Source: Anaerolineae bacterium (lineage in GTDB: Bacteria; Chloroflexota; Anaerolineae; DUEN01). From it: DNA of 64,000 bases. Where the stretch lies: positions 219,577 through 283,576 of the forward strand of contig JANXBS010000001.1 in the NCBI GenBank assembly GCA_025060615.1. Reading direction: 5' to 3'. Shown here one piece after another: positions 33,727-41,655 of the stretch; position 1 is the first letter of the stretch; each line of letters starts with the position of its first letter. A program made the translations under genes and the position numbers. Below the pieces are notes generated by a model. It ran no database searches. It worked only from the letters and a program-made list of their open reading frames with translations, and had not been told where the DNA came from.

Positions 33727-33754
33727 TTGACACGGGGATGGCGTGTGCTATAAT
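33727..33754 (+). promoter_or_regulatory. Consensus sigma-70 promoter of the ABC importer operon
   Basis: TTGACA (33727-33732) and TATAAT (33749-33754), both perfect, lie 16 bases apart. Transcription would start near 33761, about 260 bases before the binding-protein ATG. A promoter this strong points to control after initiation. Confidence 0.85.
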
Positions 33755-33898
33755 CTCGAAGCAGCGAAGGAATATGCTACAACCTCTGTCCCAAGGCAGA
33801 AGTGTTCTGACACAGGAATGAACACCGGCAATTTCCAGAATCAAGACGAAGAGCCTCCATCTCATGACGGCAAAGCTATAGCCGGCATACATGCCTCG

Positions 33899-33940
33899 GG
33901 GGCAGCAGCCTGCCTGGGTTGGCTGCCCCTTTTGTCTTTT
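33899..33940 (+). terminator. Intrinsic terminator inside the transporter leader (possible attenuator)
   Basis: GGGGCAGC (33899-33906) pairs with GCTGCCCC (33922-33929) over a 15-base loop, followed by TTTTGTCTTTT. It lies between the promoter and the first gene on the same strand, the arrangement of an attenuator or expression-platform terminator. Confidence 0.75.
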
Positions 33941-34019
33941 GGGAGCCTCTTTCACCTGGTGCTGCGACTTCCGCTTGCCGCGTCCCAGCGTTTATGTTGG
34001 GCTGATCAGGAGGAAAATC

Positions 34020-35690
34020 ATGTGGGCCAAACGCTTCGCCATGCTTTTGGGCAGGATGCTGGTGATCGTCTGGCTAGCTGCCTGTGCTCCTGTGCGGCCT
34101 GTTCGTGCTCCAGCTCCTCAGGCGACATCGGCCGCTACAGCCCCTAAGACAATCTCCATCTCTTTCTTCGAGGAGCCGGACAGCCTGAATTTCATGTACA
34201 CCCAGATGTGGTTTGCCACGCTGGCGATGGACCTCATCCAGCGCGGGCTTTGGGTGTACGATGATCATCAGAACTTCGTTCCTGAGCTGGCAGTCGAGGT
34301 CCCCAGCCGTGAGAATGGCGGCATCTCCGAGGACGGCAAGGTCATCACCATCCGGCTGCGACAGGGGATACGCTGGCACGATGGACAGCCAGTCACCTCG
34401 GCCGACGTGAGGTTCACTTACGACGCAATCATGAACCCCAGCAACATCGTGGATACGCGCTACCCATATGAGGAGTATATCGAGACCGTAGAGACGCCCG
34501 ACGACTATACAGTGGTCATCCGCTTCAAGCAGCCTTTTGCGGGGTGGTGGACCATGTTCCCATACGTGCTGCCCAAACATCTTCTAGGTGAGCTTGAGTC
34601 GCTGGACACGGCGGAGTTCAATCGGGCTCCGGTAGGTTTCGGCCCTTTCAAGTTTAAGGAGTGGGTCTCGGGCGATCACATCACTCTGGAGAAAAATCCG
34701 GACTATTGGCGCGGCGAGCCAAAGGTGGACACCATCTATATCAAAATTGTGCCCAGTTCCGAGGTGCAGATGGCGGCGATCCAGGCCGGAGGCCAAGTCG
34801 ATATCGGCGTGTTCCACTCGTATGACGAGGTGCCTGTGCTAGAAAGGTTGGGCACAGTGGATGTGCAGGCGATCTACTACGCCTATAATGAGTTCTACCC
34901 GTTCAACCTCGATCCGAATCTCGGCCATCCAGCCTTTCAGGACGCACGTGTCCGCCGCGCTGTCGCTATGAGCATAGACCGGGAGAAGATCACCCAGACG
35001 CTGCTGCTGGGTTTGACCCAGCCGGCTCGCACGTTTTGGGATGGTACCGCCTACGCTAACCAGAACATCCCCTTGATCCTGTACAATCCCCAAGCGGCAG
35101 CAGCGTTGCTAGACGAGGCGGGCTGGGTTGATCATGACGAAGATGGCATTCGGGACAAGGATGGGATTAAGTTCTCGTTCATCCACAGGACGACGGCTGG
35201 GCGGAAGATCCGCGAGGACGCCCAGTTGGCTGTGCAGCAAATGCTGAAGGATCAGGGCATCGAGATGATCATCGAGAACGTGCCATATGACCTGTTCTTC
35301 GAGAGCTACGCCAACGGCGGGCCGATCTACAGCGGGCAGTATCACATGGCCGGCTGGTCGGATGGCTCGTTCCCCGATCCCGGCTCCGCTGCTTACTATT
35401 GGCTCTGCGACCAGATCCCCACCGAGGACAATCCGGAGGGGGGCAACTTCCAGCGATATTGCAATGAGGAGCTCGACCGGCTCCTGCGCGAGCAAGATGT
35501 GACAGTGGACCCGGCGAAACGCAAGGCCATCTTCGATCGCATCCAGCAGCTCATGTACGATGAAACGATCTTCGTGCCCATGTGGAATGACCCAGACCTT
35601 TGGTCCGTCAACCGGCGGCTGCATGCTGTGCGGCTTGGCGGCTGGACGCCGTTCTGGAACGCACACGAATGGGATGTGAGCTCCAATTAG
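34020..35690 (+). CDS. ABC transporter substrate-binding lipoprotein (family 5)
   Basis: Binding protein of the oligopeptide/nickel/oligosaccharide family, 556 residues. Lipobox LAAC at about residue 21 follows a hydrophobic helix. Family blocks: TISISFFEEPDSLNFMYT, VITIRLRQGIRWHDGQPVTSADVRF, VGFGPFKFKEW, EKNPDYWRGEPKVDTIYIK and a C-terminal NPDLW-like end. ATG 34020 is preceded by AGGAGGAAAATC; the longer frame from 33891 runs through the leader hairpin and is unlikely. Two permeases follow at once, then a GH5 glycanase. In Thermotoga, members of this family bind cello- and other oligosaccharides, which may apply here. Confidence 0.93.
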   Translation: MWAKRFAMLLGRMLVIVWLAACAPVRPVRAPAPQATSAATAPKTISISFFEEPDSLNFMYTQMWFATLAMDLIQRGLWVYDDHQNFVPELAVEVPSRENGGISEDGKVITIRLRQGIRWHDGQPVTSADVRFTYDAIMNPSNIVDTRYPYEEYIETVETPDDYTVVIRFKQPFAGWWTMFPYVLPKHLLGELESLDTAEFNRAPVGFGPFKFKEWVSGDHITLEKNPDYWRGEPKVDTIYIKIVPSSEVQMAAIQAGGQVDIGVFHSYDEVPVLERLGTVDVQAIYYAYNEFYPFNLDPNLGHPAFQDARVRRAVAMSIDREKITQTLLLGLTQPARTFWDGTAYANQNIPLILYNPQAAAALLDEAGWVDHDEDGIRDKDGIKFSFIHRTTAGRKIREDAQLAVQQMLKDQGIEMIIENVPYDLFFESYANGGPIYSGQYHMAGWSDGSFPDPGSAAYYWLCDQIPTEDNPEGGNFQRYCNEELDRLLREQDVTVDPAKRKAIFDRIQQLMYDETIFVPMWNDPDLWSVNRRLHAVRLGGWTPFWNAHEWDVSSN

Positions 35691-35718
35691 TCAGGATCTG
35701 ATCAGGGAACGAAAGCTC

Positions 35719-36684
35719 ATGACGCAGTACATTGTCCGTCGCCTCCTGCAAGCGGTCCCCTTGCTGTTGATTATCACGTTCCTGCTGTTCGCCCTGATAC
35801 AGGAAATGGGCGATCCGCTCTCGTTCTACGCTGGCCGCGGCCGTATCCGTCCGGAGGACCGGGTGCGATTGACCCGGCAGCTTGGACTAGATCAGCCGCT
35901 GGCAGTGCGTTATCTGATCTGGCTCAAGAACATGGCTACCGGTAACTGGGGTAACTCACTAGCTACGCGTCAGCCTGTGATCCGGATGATCGCTGAGCGG
36001 CTGCCCAACACGCTGCTCCTGATGCTCTCGGCCGAGGTAGTGATCGTGATCTGTTCACTCCTGCTGGGCACTTACTCTGCACTGCGGCGGCACTCGCTGC
36101 TGGACCACATCCTGACCACACTCTCCCTGATCGGTTACTCGATGCCGGTGTTCTGGGTAGCGCTGACGCTGATCTATATCTTCGGCGTCCACTTCAAGCG
36201 CTGGGGACTGCCCTATCTGCCCACAGGAGGAGTGTATGACCCCGCAGTGGGCAAAACGGTGCCCCAGGTGTTGTGGCATCTGATCCTACCGGTCGCCACC
36301 CTCTCCATCATCTCGATCTCGGGATATACCCGGTACATCCGGGCCACTCTGTTAGAGGTGGTGCATGAGGATTATATCCGCACGGCACGGGCCAAAGGGC
36401 TACGAGAGCGAGTGATCCTCTTTCGCCATGCGCTCAAAAATGCAGCGATCCCCTTTGTCACGCTTTTGGGACTGGACCTGCCCTTCCTATTAGGAGGAGC
36501 TATTGTCACCGAATCCATCTTCGCCTGGCCGGGCATGGGGAGGCTCTTCTGGGAGCATGCCGGCAAGGCCGACTATCCTGTGTTGATGGCGATCTTGCTG
36601 TTGATCTCTGTAGCGGTCGTAGTCTTTCAGCTCTTGGCTGACATCTGCTATACCTGGCTAGACCCGCGTATCCGATATCATTAG
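35719..36684 (+). CDS. ABC importer permease, DppB/OppB type
   Basis: Inner-membrane permease of the oligopeptide-type importer, 321 residues, six helices. Seen: N-terminal MTQYIVRRLLQAVPLLLIIT, the GLDQPLAVRYLIWLKNMATG block usual in DppB, and the EAA loop RTARAKGLRERVILFRHALKNA that contacts the ATPase, followed by GGAIVTESIFAWPGMGRL. It lies 28 bases after its binding protein. The matching ATPases (DppD/F type) are not encoded in this window, so they must be elsewhere. Confidence 0.95.
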   Translation: MTQYIVRRLLQAVPLLLIITFLLFALIQEMGDPLSFYAGRGRIRPEDRVRLTRQLGLDQPLAVRYLIWLKNMATGNWGNSLATRQPVIRMIAERLPNTLLLMLSAEVVIVICSLLLGTYSALRRHSLLDHILTTLSLIGYSMPVFWVALTLIYIFGVHFKRWGLPYLPTGGVYDPAVGKTVPQVLWHLILPVATLSIISISGYTRYIRATLLEVVHEDYIRTARAKGLRERVILFRHALKNAAIPFVTLLGLDLPFLLGGAIVTESIFAWPGMGRLFWEHAGKADYPVLMAILLLISVAVVVFQLLADICYTWLDPRIRYH

Positions 36685-36705
36685 CTGAGGGAGGCCTTCA
36701 CATTT

Positions 36706-37671
36706 ATGGCACAGTTGCAGGCGGCGGATATCCCGTTGCGGCCTCGGCTGGCCATGGCCGAGCTGCCGGAGATCGGGCTGCTGCAGAGGGCCTGGCGCCG
36801 CTTTCGGCGACATCGGATGGCGTGTCTGAGCGCGCTGATACTTGCTCTGATCTTGGCATATGTGACGCTGGGAGCGCTTATCCTGGACGAAAGTTATGCC
36901 AATCAAACGAATCTGACGCGGGGGCTGCAGGCTCCATCATGGGCACATCCCTTCGGGACCGATCGCACAGGACGGGATGTGCTAGCGCGAACGATCTATG
37001 GTGGGCAAATTTCGTTGCTTGTTGGCATCCTCTCGGTGATGGTCTCGGTGGGGATTGGCACGGCGATCGGCGCGCTGGCGGGGTTTTACGGCCGATGGAT
37101 GGACAGCCTCCTAATGCGGTTCACCGAGGCGATGTTGAACATTCCACAGCTCTTTCTCTTGATCGTTCTGAGCAAACTGCTGAGCTCGGAGCTCAGGTCT
37201 CTCACGATCCTAGGACGCACGTTCGATGGGAGCATGGTGATCGTGATCGGCATCATTGGTGTCACAAGCTGGATGTATGAGGCCCGGCTGGTGCGAGCGA
37301 ATTTCCTATCGCTGAAGGAGCAGGAGTTCGTCACGGCGGCCCGCGCTACAGGGGTGAAGAACTATCGGATCATCCTGCGCCACATCTTACCCAACACAAT
37401 GGCGCCGATCCTCGTGTCAGCCACCCTAGGGGTGGCCAATGCGATCCTGACTGAGGCCTACGCGAGCTTCTTGGGGCTAGGGGTACAACCGCCGACGGCC
37501 AGTTGGGGCAGTATGCTGGAGGATGCGCTGCCGTACCTAGAGACGGCGCCATGGCTGTGGCTCTTTCCCGGTTCGCTGATCCTGCTAACCGTAATCTCCA
37601 TTAATTTCCTAGGCGATGGTCTACGAGATGCCTTGGACCCGCGGACCATGGACCGCAAGGGAGGAGGATGA
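36706..37671 (+). CDS. ABC importer permease, DppC/OppC type
   Basis: Second permease of the importer, 321 residues. Seen: N-terminal OppC-type helix after AWRRFRRHRMACLSALIL, the conserved HPFGTDRTGRDVLARTIYG block, and EAA loop TAARATGVKNYRIILRHILPN, followed by LGLGVQPPTASWGSML. The ATG follows a GAGGGAGG-type site after a 21-base gap. Its stop TGA abuts the ATG of the GH5 gene, so transport and hydrolysis genes are translationally linked. Confidence 0.95.
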   Translation: MAQLQAADIPLRPRLAMAELPEIGLLQRAWRRFRRHRMACLSALILALILAYVTLGALILDESYANQTNLTRGLQAPSWAHPFGTDRTGRDVLARTIYGGQISLLVGILSVMVSVGIGTAIGALAGFYGRWMDSLLMRFTEAMLNIPQLFLLIVLSKLLSSELRSLTILGRTFDGSMVIVIGIIGVTSWMYEARLVRANFLSLKEQEFVTAARATGVKNYRIILRHILPNTMAPILVSATLGVANAILTEAYASFLGLGVQPPTASWGSMLEDALPYLETAPWLWLFPGSLILLTVISINFLGDGLRDALDPRTMDRKGGG

Positions 37672-38742
37672 ATGGTGCGACAAGAGGGAAGAATGACTTT
37701 GCTCTTGATTCTCTGGGTGATTCTAGCAGTGGTGGCTGGATGTGCTCAGGTGCCGGAGGGCTGGAAATTTCCCACGGCTACGCCGACGCCGGCGAATGAC
37801 CCATTCGTGCAGAATGCCCGACTAGGCCGTGGTGTGAACCTAGGGAACGCGCTCGAAGCCCCTTACGAAGGTGCCTGGGGGCTCGTTTTACGGGAGGAAT
37901 ACTTTCGGCTGATCAAGGAAGCGGGATTTCATTCGGTCCGTATCCCCATCCGTTGGTCAGCTCACGCGCTGGAAAAGGAGCCATACACTATTGACTCGCG
38001 GTTTTTCGAGCGGGTAGATTGGGCGGTTAACCAGGCGCTTTCGCAGGGATTGCTAGTGGTCATCAATATGCACCATTTCGGCGAGCTGATGGCGAGTCCC
38101 CAAGGACAGCGGGAGCGATTCCTGGCGTTGTGGAAGCAAATCGCGGAGCACTATCAAGGCTACCCGCCAGAGTTATTGTTTGAACTGCTTAACGAACCAT
38201 CCGAGCGGCTCACGGCAGCGATATGGAACGAGCTGCTGCGGGACGCGCTACGGGTTATCCGGGCCAGCAATCCTGATCGGAACGTCATCGTAGGGCCGGT
38301 GCAGTGGAACAATATCCGCGCCCTGTCCAGCCTAAAGTTGCCATCGGAGGATCGCCATCTGATCGTGACCATTCACTACTACGAGCCGTTCCAGTTTACC
38401 CATCAGGGGGCCGAGTGGGTAGCCGGGGCAAGGGCGTGGCTGGGGACCACCTGGCAAGGCACCGAGGCGGAAAGGCGCGCTATCGAAGCTGATTTCGATC
38501 TGGCTGCGACGTGGGCCAAGCGGGAGGGACGCCCTCTATACCTAGGCGAGTTCGGCGCTTACAGTACGGCCGATATGGACTCGCGGGCGCGCTGGACTAG
38601 CTTCGTAGCCCGGCAGGCCGAAGCGCGCGGCATGAGCTGGGCCTACTGGGAGTTCGGCGCGGGATTCGGCGTGTATGATCGAGCTCGGGGGGATTGGCAT
38701 AAGCCGCTTTTGGAGGCTTTGATCCCTCCTGATGATGAGTAA
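37672..38742 (+). CDS. Glycoside hydrolase family 5 lipoprotein (endo-beta-glucanase-like)
   Basis: Secreted, lipid-anchored beta-glycanase; GH5 members hydrolyse cellulose, beta-glucan or mannan with retention. Seen in 356 residues: hydrophobic N-terminus and lipobox VAGC, a short Thr/Pro linker, RLGRGVNLGNALEAP, VRIPIRW, INMHHF, acid/base Glu in FELLNEPSE, IHYYEPFQFTHQG, and nucleophile Glu in YLGEFGAY. ATG directly follows the permease TGA and is served by GGAGGAGG. Linkage to an oligopeptide-type importer suggests that it makes the oligosaccharides that the importer takes up (inference). Confidence 0.93.
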   Translation: MVRQEGRMTLLLILWVILAVVAGCAQVPEGWKFPTATPTPANDPFVQNARLGRGVNLGNALEAPYEGAWGLVLREEYFRLIKEAGFHSVRIPIRWSAHALEKEPYTIDSRFFERVDWAVNQALSQGLLVVINMHHFGELMASPQGQRERFLALWKQIAEHYQGYPPELLFELLNEPSERLTAAIWNELLRDALRVIRASNPDRNVIVGPVQWNNIRALSSLKLPSEDRHLIVTIHYYEPFQFTHQGAEWVAGARAWLGTTWQGTEAERRAIEADFDLAATWAKREGRPLYLGEFGAYSTADMDSRARWTSFVARQAEARGMSWAYWEFGAGFGVYDRARGDWHKPLLEALIPPDDE

Positions 38743-38772
38743 TTAAGAACCACCCGTCTCGGATATGAGCCT

Positions 38773-39852
38773 ATGCCCATGACCTTGCGCGAACGGCTGC
38801 TGGTCACCCTACGTGGCGGCATGCCCGACCGCATCCCCTGGAACATCTACGCCTGGCTCCTACCAGATACGCCCGCCGGGCATGCCCTGCACCGGTGGGG
38901 GCTAGGGCTGATGGGAACAGCCCGCATCTTTCGCCCGGTGTATGAGGGCGTCACGATCGCTGAGGAGCGAACGGAGATCGCCGGACAGCTGTGGATGCGG
39001 GTCCAAATCGAAACGCCCGTGGGCACGCTCACCGAGGAGGCCACCATTGAGCCGAACTACAACAGCCGCTGGATCCGGAAGTTCTTCATCACCAACCCAG
39101 ACGATTACGCGGCGGCGGAGTACTTCTTCCAGCACACCCGCTTTGAGCCGGATTTCGAGGCTTGGCAACGGGTGGACACAGCCATTGGCGATGGCGGGAT
39201 TACCGTTGGGGAGATCATGCCCATCCCCATCATGCATTTGATGGTCGCCTGGATGGGAGCCGAGGGTCTGGCCGAAGGGATCTACCTGTATTCGGAACGC
39301 TTGGATGCCTTACTCGATGCGCTACAGGCGCATTACGAACGGCAGATCCAGCTCGCCGCCGAGTGCCCAGCAGAGGTGATCTGGTTCCCCGACAACGTGA
39401 CCGGCACGATCATCTCCCCTGCGTTATTTGAGCGGTATTGCGCCCCCGTGTATGCGCGCGCCATGCCGGTCATGCGCAGCGCGGGCAAGATCCCCATCGC
39501 GCACTACGATGGCTCGAACCGACCGCTGGTCCACTGTCTGGCGCGGACAGAGCTGCCAGTGATCGAGGCGTTTACGCCGCCCCCGATGGGCGATCTAAGC
39601 GTGGCGGAGGCCAAAGCCGCCTGGCCTGACAAGGTGATTTGGGTTAACTTTCCCGGCCATCTGTTCCTAGAGCCGCCGGGGGTGATCGAAGCGTATACGC
39701 TGAAGCTCCTGCAGGAAGGGGCTCCCGGCGGACGATTCGTGTTGGGGTGCACGGAGGACTTTCCGGTGAGCGAATTCGAGAAAACGTTCATCGCCATCGG
39801 CCGGGCGCTAGCGGCTTATGAAGGATATCCCTGGCCGCCAGACGAGTCATAG
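38773..39852 (+). CDS. Uroporphyrinogen decarboxylase-fold protein, probably not a haem enzyme
   Basis: URO-D superfamily barrel of 359 residues. The Arg-rich substrate motif of true HemE near the N-terminus is missing; instead it reads RIPWNIYAWLLP. The Zn motif of MtaA-type methyltransferases (HxC) is also changed: the equivalent block reads IAHYDGSNRPL, with LGCTEDFP further on. Such URO-D-like proteins are often found in carbohydrate clusters with unknown function. It lies 30 bases after the GH5 gene. No other haem-synthesis gene is nearby. Fold assignment is firm, activity unknown. Confidence 0.82.
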   Translation: MPMTLRERLLVTLRGGMPDRIPWNIYAWLLPDTPAGHALHRWGLGLMGTARIFRPVYEGVTIAEERTEIAGQLWMRVQIETPVGTLTEEATIEPNYNSRWIRKFFITNPDDYAAAEYFFQHTRFEPDFEAWQRVDTAIGDGGITVGEIMPIPIMHLMVAWMGAEGLAEGIYLYSERLDALLDALQAHYERQIQLAAECPAEVIWFPDNVTGTIISPALFERYCAPVYARAMPVMRSAGKIPIAHYDGSNRPLVHCLARTELPVIEAFTPPPMGDLSVAEAKAAWPDKVIWVNFPGHLFLEPPGVIEAYTLKLLQEGAPGGRFVLGCTEDFPVSEFEKTFIAIGRALAAYEGYPWPPDES

Positions 39853-39891
39853 TACAGTGGTGCCAAATTCATCTCTACGAGGAGCAGGTTC

Positions 39892-41655
39892 ATGAACAAG
39901 CTAGGCTTTTACATCCACGTCCCTACTATTCCCGGTTTGATCGAGGCCATCCGGGCTGTGCAGCCACCGGTGATCCTCACCCATGCCGATAGCCGCGGCC
40001 TTCTGCGTGACATCCGCCGCGGCCTCTCGCCCGATTCCTTCGTGATCGGTCGGCTATTCCTCACACCGGCACAGCAAGACGCCATCCTGAACGCGCCTGA
40101 CCCCGAGGAGCAAGGACGTCAGTTCGCCGAACGCGTCCTCCGTCATGACTTCGAGCTGGCCCGTGAGCGCGCCCCCAACGGCCGTTTGCTCATTGACGCC
40201 TGGATGTCTCTCAACGAGGCGGTACCTGGGCCAGCCTCGCTGCGCGGCTATCAGATCGGCAAACCGCTGGAGACCCTCCCCGGCTTCCAGGAGATGGCGC
40301 GCCGGGCTGATGCCTTCGATCGCTTTCAAGCTGCGTTTCTGCGCCGCCTGCACCAAGAGGGCTTGGAAGGCGTGGCCTTCAACTTCGCCACGCTGAACTG
40401 GCTGGAGGGAGAACACTACATCCGTTTCTTCCCGCGCACTCTGGCTGAGGCGAAGTACCTAGGCTTCCACGAATACGGCTGGCCCACGATGATGGAAGAC
40501 CCGCAGCGGGGCACAGTCACTGGCTGTCTAGTGTACCGCCGTGTCATGACGGCCATTCGCCGCCAGTACGGCGATCAACACCGCGTGATCATCACGGAAT
40601 GCGGGCTGGCGCGTGCTGTCAAGCACGGGATGCCCGATGTCGGCTGGTTATATGAGGCAGATTCCATTCCTGAAGAGCAGTATGTAGAATCGCTACGCTG
40701 GTACAACCGAGAGCTGTGTCGAGATGTCTATGTGTTGGGGGGATGTCTGTACGAGGTAGGCCACGCCGGCGACTGGTATTCGTTTCGACACCTGGGCACC
40801 GACAATCGCGGCAAACCCCTTCGCGTGATCGAGCAGATCGCCCGATTCCGAGAGGAGCCGACACCCGAGCCGACGCCGCCACCGAGGCCAGCACCGCCTC
40901 CACCGGAACCTCAGCCACAGCCTAAGCCGCGCGTGCCTACTCCAGCGATTGAAGATGTGTCGGCGCAGTTGCCCGTCCATCCGCAACGTCGTTACTCGCA
41001 GCGCGCCGTGAGCGACATCCGCCGCCTGATCATCCACCACACCGGCGTCAGCTCGGATCCGGATCCCGAGGCCATCGCCCGCTATCAGGTGAGCCAGCGT
41101 GGCCTGCCCGGCATCGGCTATCACTTCTTGATCCGCTTCGACGGCCGCATTCAACAGACGCAGCCGCTGACTGTGGCCTCTGCGCATACCACACGCCACA
41201 ACGAGGACAGCGTGGGCATCGCCTTTGCTGGAAGCTTCATGCAGGGGATCCCCACGCCGGCGCAGCTCGCCAGTGGTGCCCACTTGTGCGCATACTTACT
41301 GGACCAGCTTGGCCTACCTATCAGTGCGATCGTTGGGCGGCGAGAAGTGGAAGGAGGGACAGCCTCACCGGGCTCGCAATGGAATGAAGGACTGCGCTGG
41401 CGGGAGACATTGCTGGCCGGGGTGACTCAGCGCTTGGAAGCGGCTGGCGTCCCCCTCATCGCCACGCGACGAGCCGGTGCTATAGCCAGCGAGGAAACCG
41501 AACCGAAGCGATCGCCCTTGGAAGAGCTGACGGAACTGCAACGCCTGGCCACACGGCTGCAAGCCGAGATCGCCGAGTTGGCCGACCGGCTGGCTGCGCT
41601 CGCCGAGGATATAACAACACAAGGAGAAGGTGAAGAAGGTAATAAGGCAAGATAA
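39892..41655 (+). CDS. Glycosidase-like barrel fused to a degenerate amidase_2/PGRP domain
   Basis: Fusion of 587 residues. Residues 1-320 look like a clan GH-A-type barrel, with LNEAVP near 110 and ITECG near 235 placed like acid/base and nucleophile glutamates; the family is unrecognised. Residues 321-350 are a Pro/Glu-rich linker. Residues 360-530 are an N-acetylmuramoyl-L-alanine amidase (PGRP) fold with RRLIIHHTG and GIGYHFLIRFDG, but the usual GHR...CPG zinc ligands read GRREVEGGTASPG, so His is Arg and Cys is Ser. A coiled-coil tail ends in TTQGEGEEGNKAR, encoded by purine-rich repeat DNA. No signal peptide is visible. It may bind rather than cut peptidoglycan. Confidence 0.8.
   Translation: MNKLGFYIHVPTIPGLIEAIRAVQPPVILTHADSRGLLRDIRRGLSPDSFVIGRLFLTPAQQDAILNAPDPEEQGRQFAERVLRHDFELARERAPNGRLLIDAWMSLNEAVPGPASLRGYQIGKPLETLPGFQEMARRADAFDRFQAAFLRRLHQEGLEGVAFNFATLNWLEGEHYIRFFPRTLAEAKYLGFHEYGWPTMMEDPQRGTVTGCLVYRRVMTAIRRQYGDQHRVIITECGLARAVKHGMPDVGWLYEADSIPEEQYVESLRWYNRELCRDVYVLGGCLYEVGHAGDWYSFRHLGTDNRGKPLRVIEQIARFREEPTPEPTPPPRPAPPPPEPQPQPKPRVPTPAIEDVSAQLPVHPQRRYSQRAVSDIRRLIIHHTGVSSDPDPEAIARYQVSQRGLPGIGYHFLIRFDGRIQQTQPLTVASAHTTRHNEDSVGIAFAGSFMQGIPTPAQLASGAHLCAYLLDQLGLPISAIVGRREVEGGTASPGSQWNEGLRWRETLLAGVTQRLEAAGVPLIATRRAGAIASEETEPKRSPLEELTELQRLATRLQAEIAELADRLAALAEDITTQGEGEEGNKAR

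Follow-up and report, generated by a model that had tools for sequence, protein, structure and literature searches.

What is the work of a protein that joins a glycosidase-like barrel to a PGRP domain in which two of the three zinc ligands have been replaced? Such a protein, of 587 amino acids, is encoded by a single open reading frame on the + strand (39892–41655) of the window, the stretch of 64,000 nucleotides of an Anaerolineae genome that was analysed here. The answer that we consider probable is that it is a retaining, cell-wall-directed glycosidase from a GH-A family yet to be classified, and that it is kept on peptidoglycan by a pseudo-amidase PGRP domain that has become a “reader”.

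The gene and its neighbourhood

An earlier note on this DNA, made from the letters alone, had the coordinates and the Arg/Ser motif right: the open reading frame is exactly 39892–41655 (+), and GRREVEGGTASPG corresponds to residues 482–494. The possibility of a broken gene was rejected, the frame being uninterrupted. A Shine-Dalgarno-like GAGGAG (39879–39884) lies 7 bases 5' of the ATG. The protein begins with a (β/α)8 barrel of GH-A type (residues 1–322, 39892–40857), assigned from a model with pLDDT 90.7 and from fold matches. The barrel is joined, as the note had described, to an amidase fold by a Pro-rich linker (residues 321–352, 40852–40947), where pLDDT is low at residues 330–342. The PGRP/Amidase_2 domain that follows, without two of its zinc ligands, spans residues 350–513 (40939–41430), as placed by Pfam, the model and fold comparison, and the full-length model predicts a long helix in a coiled-coil-like tail (residues 542–577, 41515–41622). 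Pfam recognizes one domain in the protein, Amidase_2 at residues 375–494, with 71.8 bits against a cut-off of 26. The barrel has zero Pfam matches, and an NCBIfam scan of the whole protein gave no match.

The protein has no signal peptide, which agrees with the first impression from the sequence. An in-frame TAG at 39850–39852, the stop codon of the preceding URO-D gene, lies 39 bases before the ATG, so that at most 13 codons could be added at the 5' end and a longer, signal-bearing N-terminus is ruled out. The N-terminus itself has no hydrophobic character.

Five co-directional genes precede the barrel-PGRP gene (33891–39852, +), with gaps of 0–39 bases, and constitute a probable operon. They encode a family-5 solute-binding protein (SBP_bac_5), OppB-like and OppC-like proteins, a GH5-type protein whose N-terminus is strongly hydrophobic, and URO-D; the barrel-PGRP gene thus probably shares an operon with genes for an Opp-type importer. 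A sigma-70-like site (33727–33754) precedes the solute-binding gene (33891); it matches at 12 of 12 positions (TTGACA, a spacer of 16, TATAAT) and has a TG before the second hexamer. Four promoter-like sites were found against 2.8 expected, and it is only the perfection of the one at 33727–33754 that stands out.

Two interpretations of this neighbourhood were rejected. One was a peptidoglycan-recycling cluster, marked by a gene for an L-Ala-D/L-Glu epimerase; the MR_MLE gene close by obtains its best score as a sugar-acid dehydratase. The other was a phage or plasmid origin, with the protein as a prophage endolysin. No locus with barrel relatives was found in viral contigs, no phage genes were found nearby, and the neighbours are transport and sugar genes. 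Among phages, no record extends over 80% of the query's length; the best 20 of 110 align within the PGRP part alone, with identities of up to 33%; the plasmid matches, among those listed, are also confined to the PGRP part.

The genome has six Mur-ligase matches, because of which it is probable that the organism makes peptidoglycan. In several relatives, the barrel-PGRP gene adjoins and follows a tandem-PGRP gene, and in relatives a helical linker of about 190 residues separates the two domains. The window gene has neither the long linker nor the adjoining tandem gene, so the biology of the relatives may not carry over fully.

A tandem-PGRP protein with an intact last domain is encoded on another contig (C6) of the same genome (L052, 5422–8307). 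It has an N-terminal barrel that looks like GH-A, contains the motifs NEP and ITET and is without a name in Pfam, followed by a degenerate PGRP domain (SGMS at the ligand places), a coiled coil and the intact PGRP domain. Its C-terminal domain resembles a cell-wall-binding repeat by eye and has no Pfam match, and a ScpA gene lies directly 3' of it.

A GH-A-like barrel and its partners

Residues 1–326, modelled together with 26 aligned relatives, form a barrel of eight strands with helices at a mean pLDDT of 90.7. Foldseek followed by VIA-align, which re-ranks the Foldseek matches so that GH families outside its list may also fit, aligned the barrel with GH-A enzymes of many families. The best match has a Z-score of 17.9 (266 aligned, rmsd 3.7). 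Many GH-A families score alike, at Z 16–18, and none is singled out; identity between the barrel and these structures is 7–14%.

Members of clan GH-A typically have an Asn-Glu acid/base at the end of strand 4 and a nucleophile Glu on strand 7. In the window barrel, the putative acid/base Glu109 (40216–40218) sits just after strand 4 (N108-E109; strand 103–105), and the putative nucleophile Glu236 (40597–40599) is found on strand 7 (231–239). Both are invariant in an alignment of 16 divergent rows, made up of the window barrel and 15 relatives that are 23–59% identical to it, as is His193-Glu194-Tyr195 on strand 6 (40468–40476), a probable active-site motif. Sixteen columns of this alignment are invariant, including W104, N108, E109, H193-E194-Y195, Y215-R216, E236 and G238. 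Fold and Glu pair together support placing the barrel in clan GH-A, and it is most likely a retaining glycosidase, still putative, of an unnamed clan-GH-A-like family. The model, the fold matches and the invariance of the two Glu residues thereby bear out the earlier proposal of a GH-A-type barrel with Glu at plausible acid/base and nucleophile places, and structure prediction, suggested at the time as a check, returned both a confident (β/α)8 barrel and a confident PGRP fold.

At the sequence level, no glycosidase model of Pfam matches any of the 27 members of the barrel family, and a profile search of PDB sequences with the barrel found no credible relative. Kinship of the window barrel with the one that opens the tandem-PGRP proteins was also considered and rejected. 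Although both are GH-A-like, profile comparison gave a probability of only 0.2%, and no sequence kinship is therefore claimed.

When the collected genomes were scanned with a pattern, 27 barrel loci emerged, labelled as Chloroflexota groups except for L095, which is labelled only “bacterium”. Of 396 genomes of Anaerolineae scanned with a profile, 180 gave a barrel match at E ≤ 0.001, though many of these matches are remote and incomplete. An N-acetylmuramidase (PF11860) is the fusion partner in L047, L040, L090 and L095, where SH3_3 is above the cut-off in L047 and L095 and just below it in L090. The barrel is fused to peptidase M23 in L085, L083, L039 and L041, and occurs with CarboxypepD_reg domains in L043, L087 and L082. 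Pfam gave no match in the barrel proteins L048 and L086 and no credible match in L049 and L053. Remoter relatives (L134 and L138, 27 and 30% identity) carry LysM, and others (L130, L135 and L136), one from the window's own genome, have N-terminal signals that look by eye like twin-arginine and lipobox signals; the NCBIfam Tat signal model gives 16.2 bits for L136, just below its cut-off of 16.7, and none for L130. Taken together, the muramidase, M23 and LysM partners and the remote relatives with apparent signals suggest a role of the barrel family at the cell wall. A hydrophobicity scan of the remaining barrel-PGRP proteins showed no signal peptide, and their sequences begin directly at the barrel. 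Extracellular action of barrel-PGRP proteins would consequently need another route.

Three proteins that combine the barrel with SH3 and N-acetylmuramidase (L091, 7941–11969; L093; L095), also without a signal peptide, have a strongly hydrophobic C-terminal stretch, two segments by eye, that is possibly a self-anchoring or export device.

The PGRP domain and its lost zinc ligands

The PGRP fold is modelled with confidence. In the full-length model, pLDDT is 82–98 per ten-residue block over residues 351–520. The best fold match, 6srt, the amidase endolysin LysCS, has a Z-score of 23.2 (151 aligned, rmsd 1.7), and non-catalytic animal PGRPs score Z 18–20 (VIA-align). Two of the three ligands of the His-His-Cys zinc triad are substituted. 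By alignment to intact relatives, the first zinc ligand, His382 (41035–41037), and the residue at the catalytic Tyr position, Tyr410 (41119–41121), are retained, while Arg483 (41338–41340) replaces the second zinc His and Ser492 (41365–41367) the zinc Cys, exactly the exchange that had been read from the amidase motif.

A comparison of 22 Arg/Ser domains with 23 intact ones found fixed-pair differences only at columns 432, 483 and 492. Among the columns that separate the 22 Arg/Ser domains there is no new His or Cys. Both groups have in common His382, Tyr410, Pro493-Gly494 and Trp497, among others. At column 487 (41350–41352; Glu487 in the window protein), 17 of the 22 Arg/Ser domains have Asp or Glu, against 30% or less of the intact ones; an acidic residue there could contact ligand or metal.

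The effect of changing these ligands is known from other PGRP amidases. In the Ts2631 endolysin, the ligand mutants H131N and C139S are reported to have 3% and 12% of activity left (PMC4573324). For Drosophila PGRP-LB, crystals of the Cys-to-Ser mutant C160S are reported to contain no zinc, and the activity of ligand mutants to be lowered or abolished depending on the substrate, some activity being kept on some (PMC8124813). The Arg/Ser replacement in 12 of 12 barrel-fused domains, an answer to the question of whether homologues conserve it, together with the impairment of the equivalent Ts2631 and PGRP-LB mutants, makes the probable loss of zinc-amidase activity in the window PGRP well supported. 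The suspicion that the amidase is inactive was thus well placed.

The same distinction extends to other PGRP domains. In a set of 61 distinct domains, Arg and Ser occur in all 12 that are barrel-fused, and the triad is intact in 0 of 21 non-last tandem copies, 18 of 19 last copies and 5 of 9 single-domain proteins. A wider census took in 184 PGRP domains from 105 ORFs; 19 were excluded because a ligand column held a gap or X, and a separate count was kept of seven, two last and five single, whose ORFs run into a contig end. In this sample, which was picked by similarity to the window protein and not at random, and whose domains are mutually related, the triad is intact in none of the 12 barrel-fused domains and none of the 68 non-last copies in two- or three-PGRP proteins (66 of which have Ser for Cys), as against 51 of 53 last copies (plus 2/2 at a contig end; the exceptions are L039 and L145) and 20 of 25 single-domain proteins (plus 4/5). 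Because of this relatedness, Fisher values for such counts do not amount to probabilities from independent samples. The His places of the other non-last copies vary freely. Ligand loss in the window gene is therefore one case of a class-wide pattern in Anaerolineae and not an isolated event. Non-catalytic PGRPs are best known from animals, and no description of tandem or barrel-fused PGRPs like these was found in the open-licence PMC literature. In one finished chromosome, tandem-PGRP and barrel genes of the same region (L100 and L140) are split over several frames, through either sequencing error or real decay.

Selection maintains the PGRP domain in barrel-PGRP genes. In 10 pairs of 5 such genes, dN/dS is 0.054–0.074 for the barrel, 0.104–0.211 for the PGRP domain and 0.076–0.38 for the linker; these values are approximate, several dS being above 1, and exclude the window gene, which has no relative close enough. 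Since all 12 barrel-fused domains carry the same two replacements and PGRP dN/dS is 0.10–0.21, the Arg/Ser pair is not due to chance.

The window domain may have a history of its own. In the tree, a 22-row clade with support 100/99.7 consists mostly of Arg/Ser domains; the window domain is not part of it but lies near the intact L054/L055, and it has His432, as intact domains do. Tree position and residue 432 hint at a loss of ligands in the window gene independent of that in the remaining eleven barrel-fused domains. Forcing the window PGRP into the 22-row clade is not rejected (AU p 0.279), nor is a single origin of all 38 degenerate rows (AU p 0.113). The values obtained when the 12 barrel-fused (AU p 0.009) or the 22 Arg/Ser domains (AU p 0.002) were made a clade were not used, since these sets cut across the clade for other reasons.

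Proposed function, rival readings and known systems

In the reading that we favour, the barrel would hydrolyse glycan by a retaining mechanism with Glu109 as the acid/base and Glu236 as the nucleophile. The PGRP domain, presumably empty of metal, would no longer cut stems but instead grip a stem peptide or muropeptide, in the manner of animal recognition PGRPs that bear the same Cys-to-Ser exchange, and the flexible linker would allow the barrel to work on the glycan beside the bound stem peptide. The protein would reach the wall by lysis-dependent export or by some other route. Wall targeting of this kind, though putative, fits the other partners of the barrel, namely N-acetylmuramidase, peptidase M23 and LysM. 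A more far-reaching idea, offered tentatively and with more doubt than confidence, is that Anaerolineae have a counterpart of animal PGRP recognition in which, across the class, signal-less wall proteins combine pseudo-amidase readers, altered from Cys to Ser as in animals, with one active PGRP or with a new family of GH-A glycosidases, so that glycan or stem would be cut only where a reader holds peptidoglycan.

The main rival would keep the protein inside the cell, as a cytoplasmic regulator or sensor that tunes wall synthesis or recycling, much as CwlM does, its pseudo-amidase having as partner a precursor, a synthesis enzyme or a muropeptide from recycling. We think this unlikely. The muramidase, M23 and LysM domains of barrel relatives act on assembled wall, a conserved GH-A Glu pair would need a glycan in the cytoplasm, and CwlM differs in fold, being a member of a different amidase family, Amidase_3. 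In favour of this rival, barrel-PGRP proteins have no signal peptide, and the window gene probably shares its operon with an Opp-type importer. CwlM itself has no secretion signal, has sites that are intact or degenerate according to species and acts as a regulator (PMC4946905). It is more doubtful that the pseudo-amidase serves as an activator or docking partner of the cell's intact PGRP amidase, like EnvC or DipM with their degenerate LytM domains. The barrel-PGRP gene of relatives usually adjoins a tandem reader-plus-amidase gene, and inactive LytM proteins are described as regulators of autolysins (PMC10336132); in the window genome, however, the two genes are on different contigs, and the residues common to Arg/Ser and intact domains (His382, Tyr410, Pro493-Gly494, Trp497) are those expected to persist if a ligand groove is kept.

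The earlier note had also allowed that the amidase uses different metal ligands, a suggestion that found little support. Continued metal-dependent activity, for instance with the acidic residue of column 487, the sole and weak candidate, is quite improbable. The enrichment of Asp/Glu at that column and the residual activity of PGRP-LB ligand mutants on some substrates would be consistent with it, but no conserved His or Cys was gained, 22 of 22 domains have Arg and Ser where the ligands would be, the His places of other non-last copies vary freely and the Cys-to-Ser PGRP-LB crystal is described as being without zinc (PMC8124813). That the domain is a decaying remnant without function, as the loss of two catalytic ligands might suggest, is scarcely credible and was already disfavoured, given the dN/dS of 0.10–0.21, the identical replacement in 12 of 12 and the confident fold.

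If the proposal of a wall-held glycosidase with a PGRP reader is right, bacteria show the same division of PGRP copies as animals, between cutting and reading, often in one polypeptide, in which the last copy is intact and the earlier ones are not. With this last-copy-intact rule, ideas on how pseudo-amidase readers arose and what they are used for can be tested. The barrel, which has a conserved Glu pair, wall partners that recur and no library name, is a candidate new family of glycosidases. Since the signal peptide is missing, it must also be asked by what means barrel-PGRP proteins leave the cell, if they do so at all.

Several known systems resemble parts of this protein. CwlM of mycobacteria is likewise an amidase homologue without a secretion signal, some of whose homologues are degenerate, but it is a regulator of MurA (PMC4946905) and has no glycosidase barrel. 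In the degenerate LytM regulators EnvC and DipM, an inactive hydrolase domain is also used in wall biology (PMC10336132), but theirs is another fold and they activate partners, whereas binding is proposed for the window PGRP. PGRP-type endolysins (Ts2631/LysT, Ph2119, PhiKo, LysC) are among the nearest solved or phage relatives by sequence and fold and are annotated as amidases or endolysins, Ts2631 being demonstrably active (PMC4573324); the window protein lacks two ligands, is chromosomal and has no phage genes that were found beside it. With clan GH-A glycosidases (GH5, GH39, GH53, GH2, GH128, GH158, PslG), the barrel has the fold and the Glu pair of strands 4 and 7 in common, but it differs from them in its low identity (7–14%) and in having no relative among Pfam glycosidases or PDB sequences. 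The non-catalytic animal PGRPs (PGRP-SA, PGRP-SD, PGRP-LE, PGLYRP1) have the PGRP fold in common with the window domain (Z 18–20). Bumblebee PGRP-SA has SPG for CPG in the aligned stretch, and hence the same Ser for the zinc Cys, although Ala is found at the zinc-His place where the window PGRP has Arg. Whereas animal PGRPs are secreted or membrane receptors, the window protein is bacterial, lacks a signal peptide and is fused to a glycosidase-like barrel.
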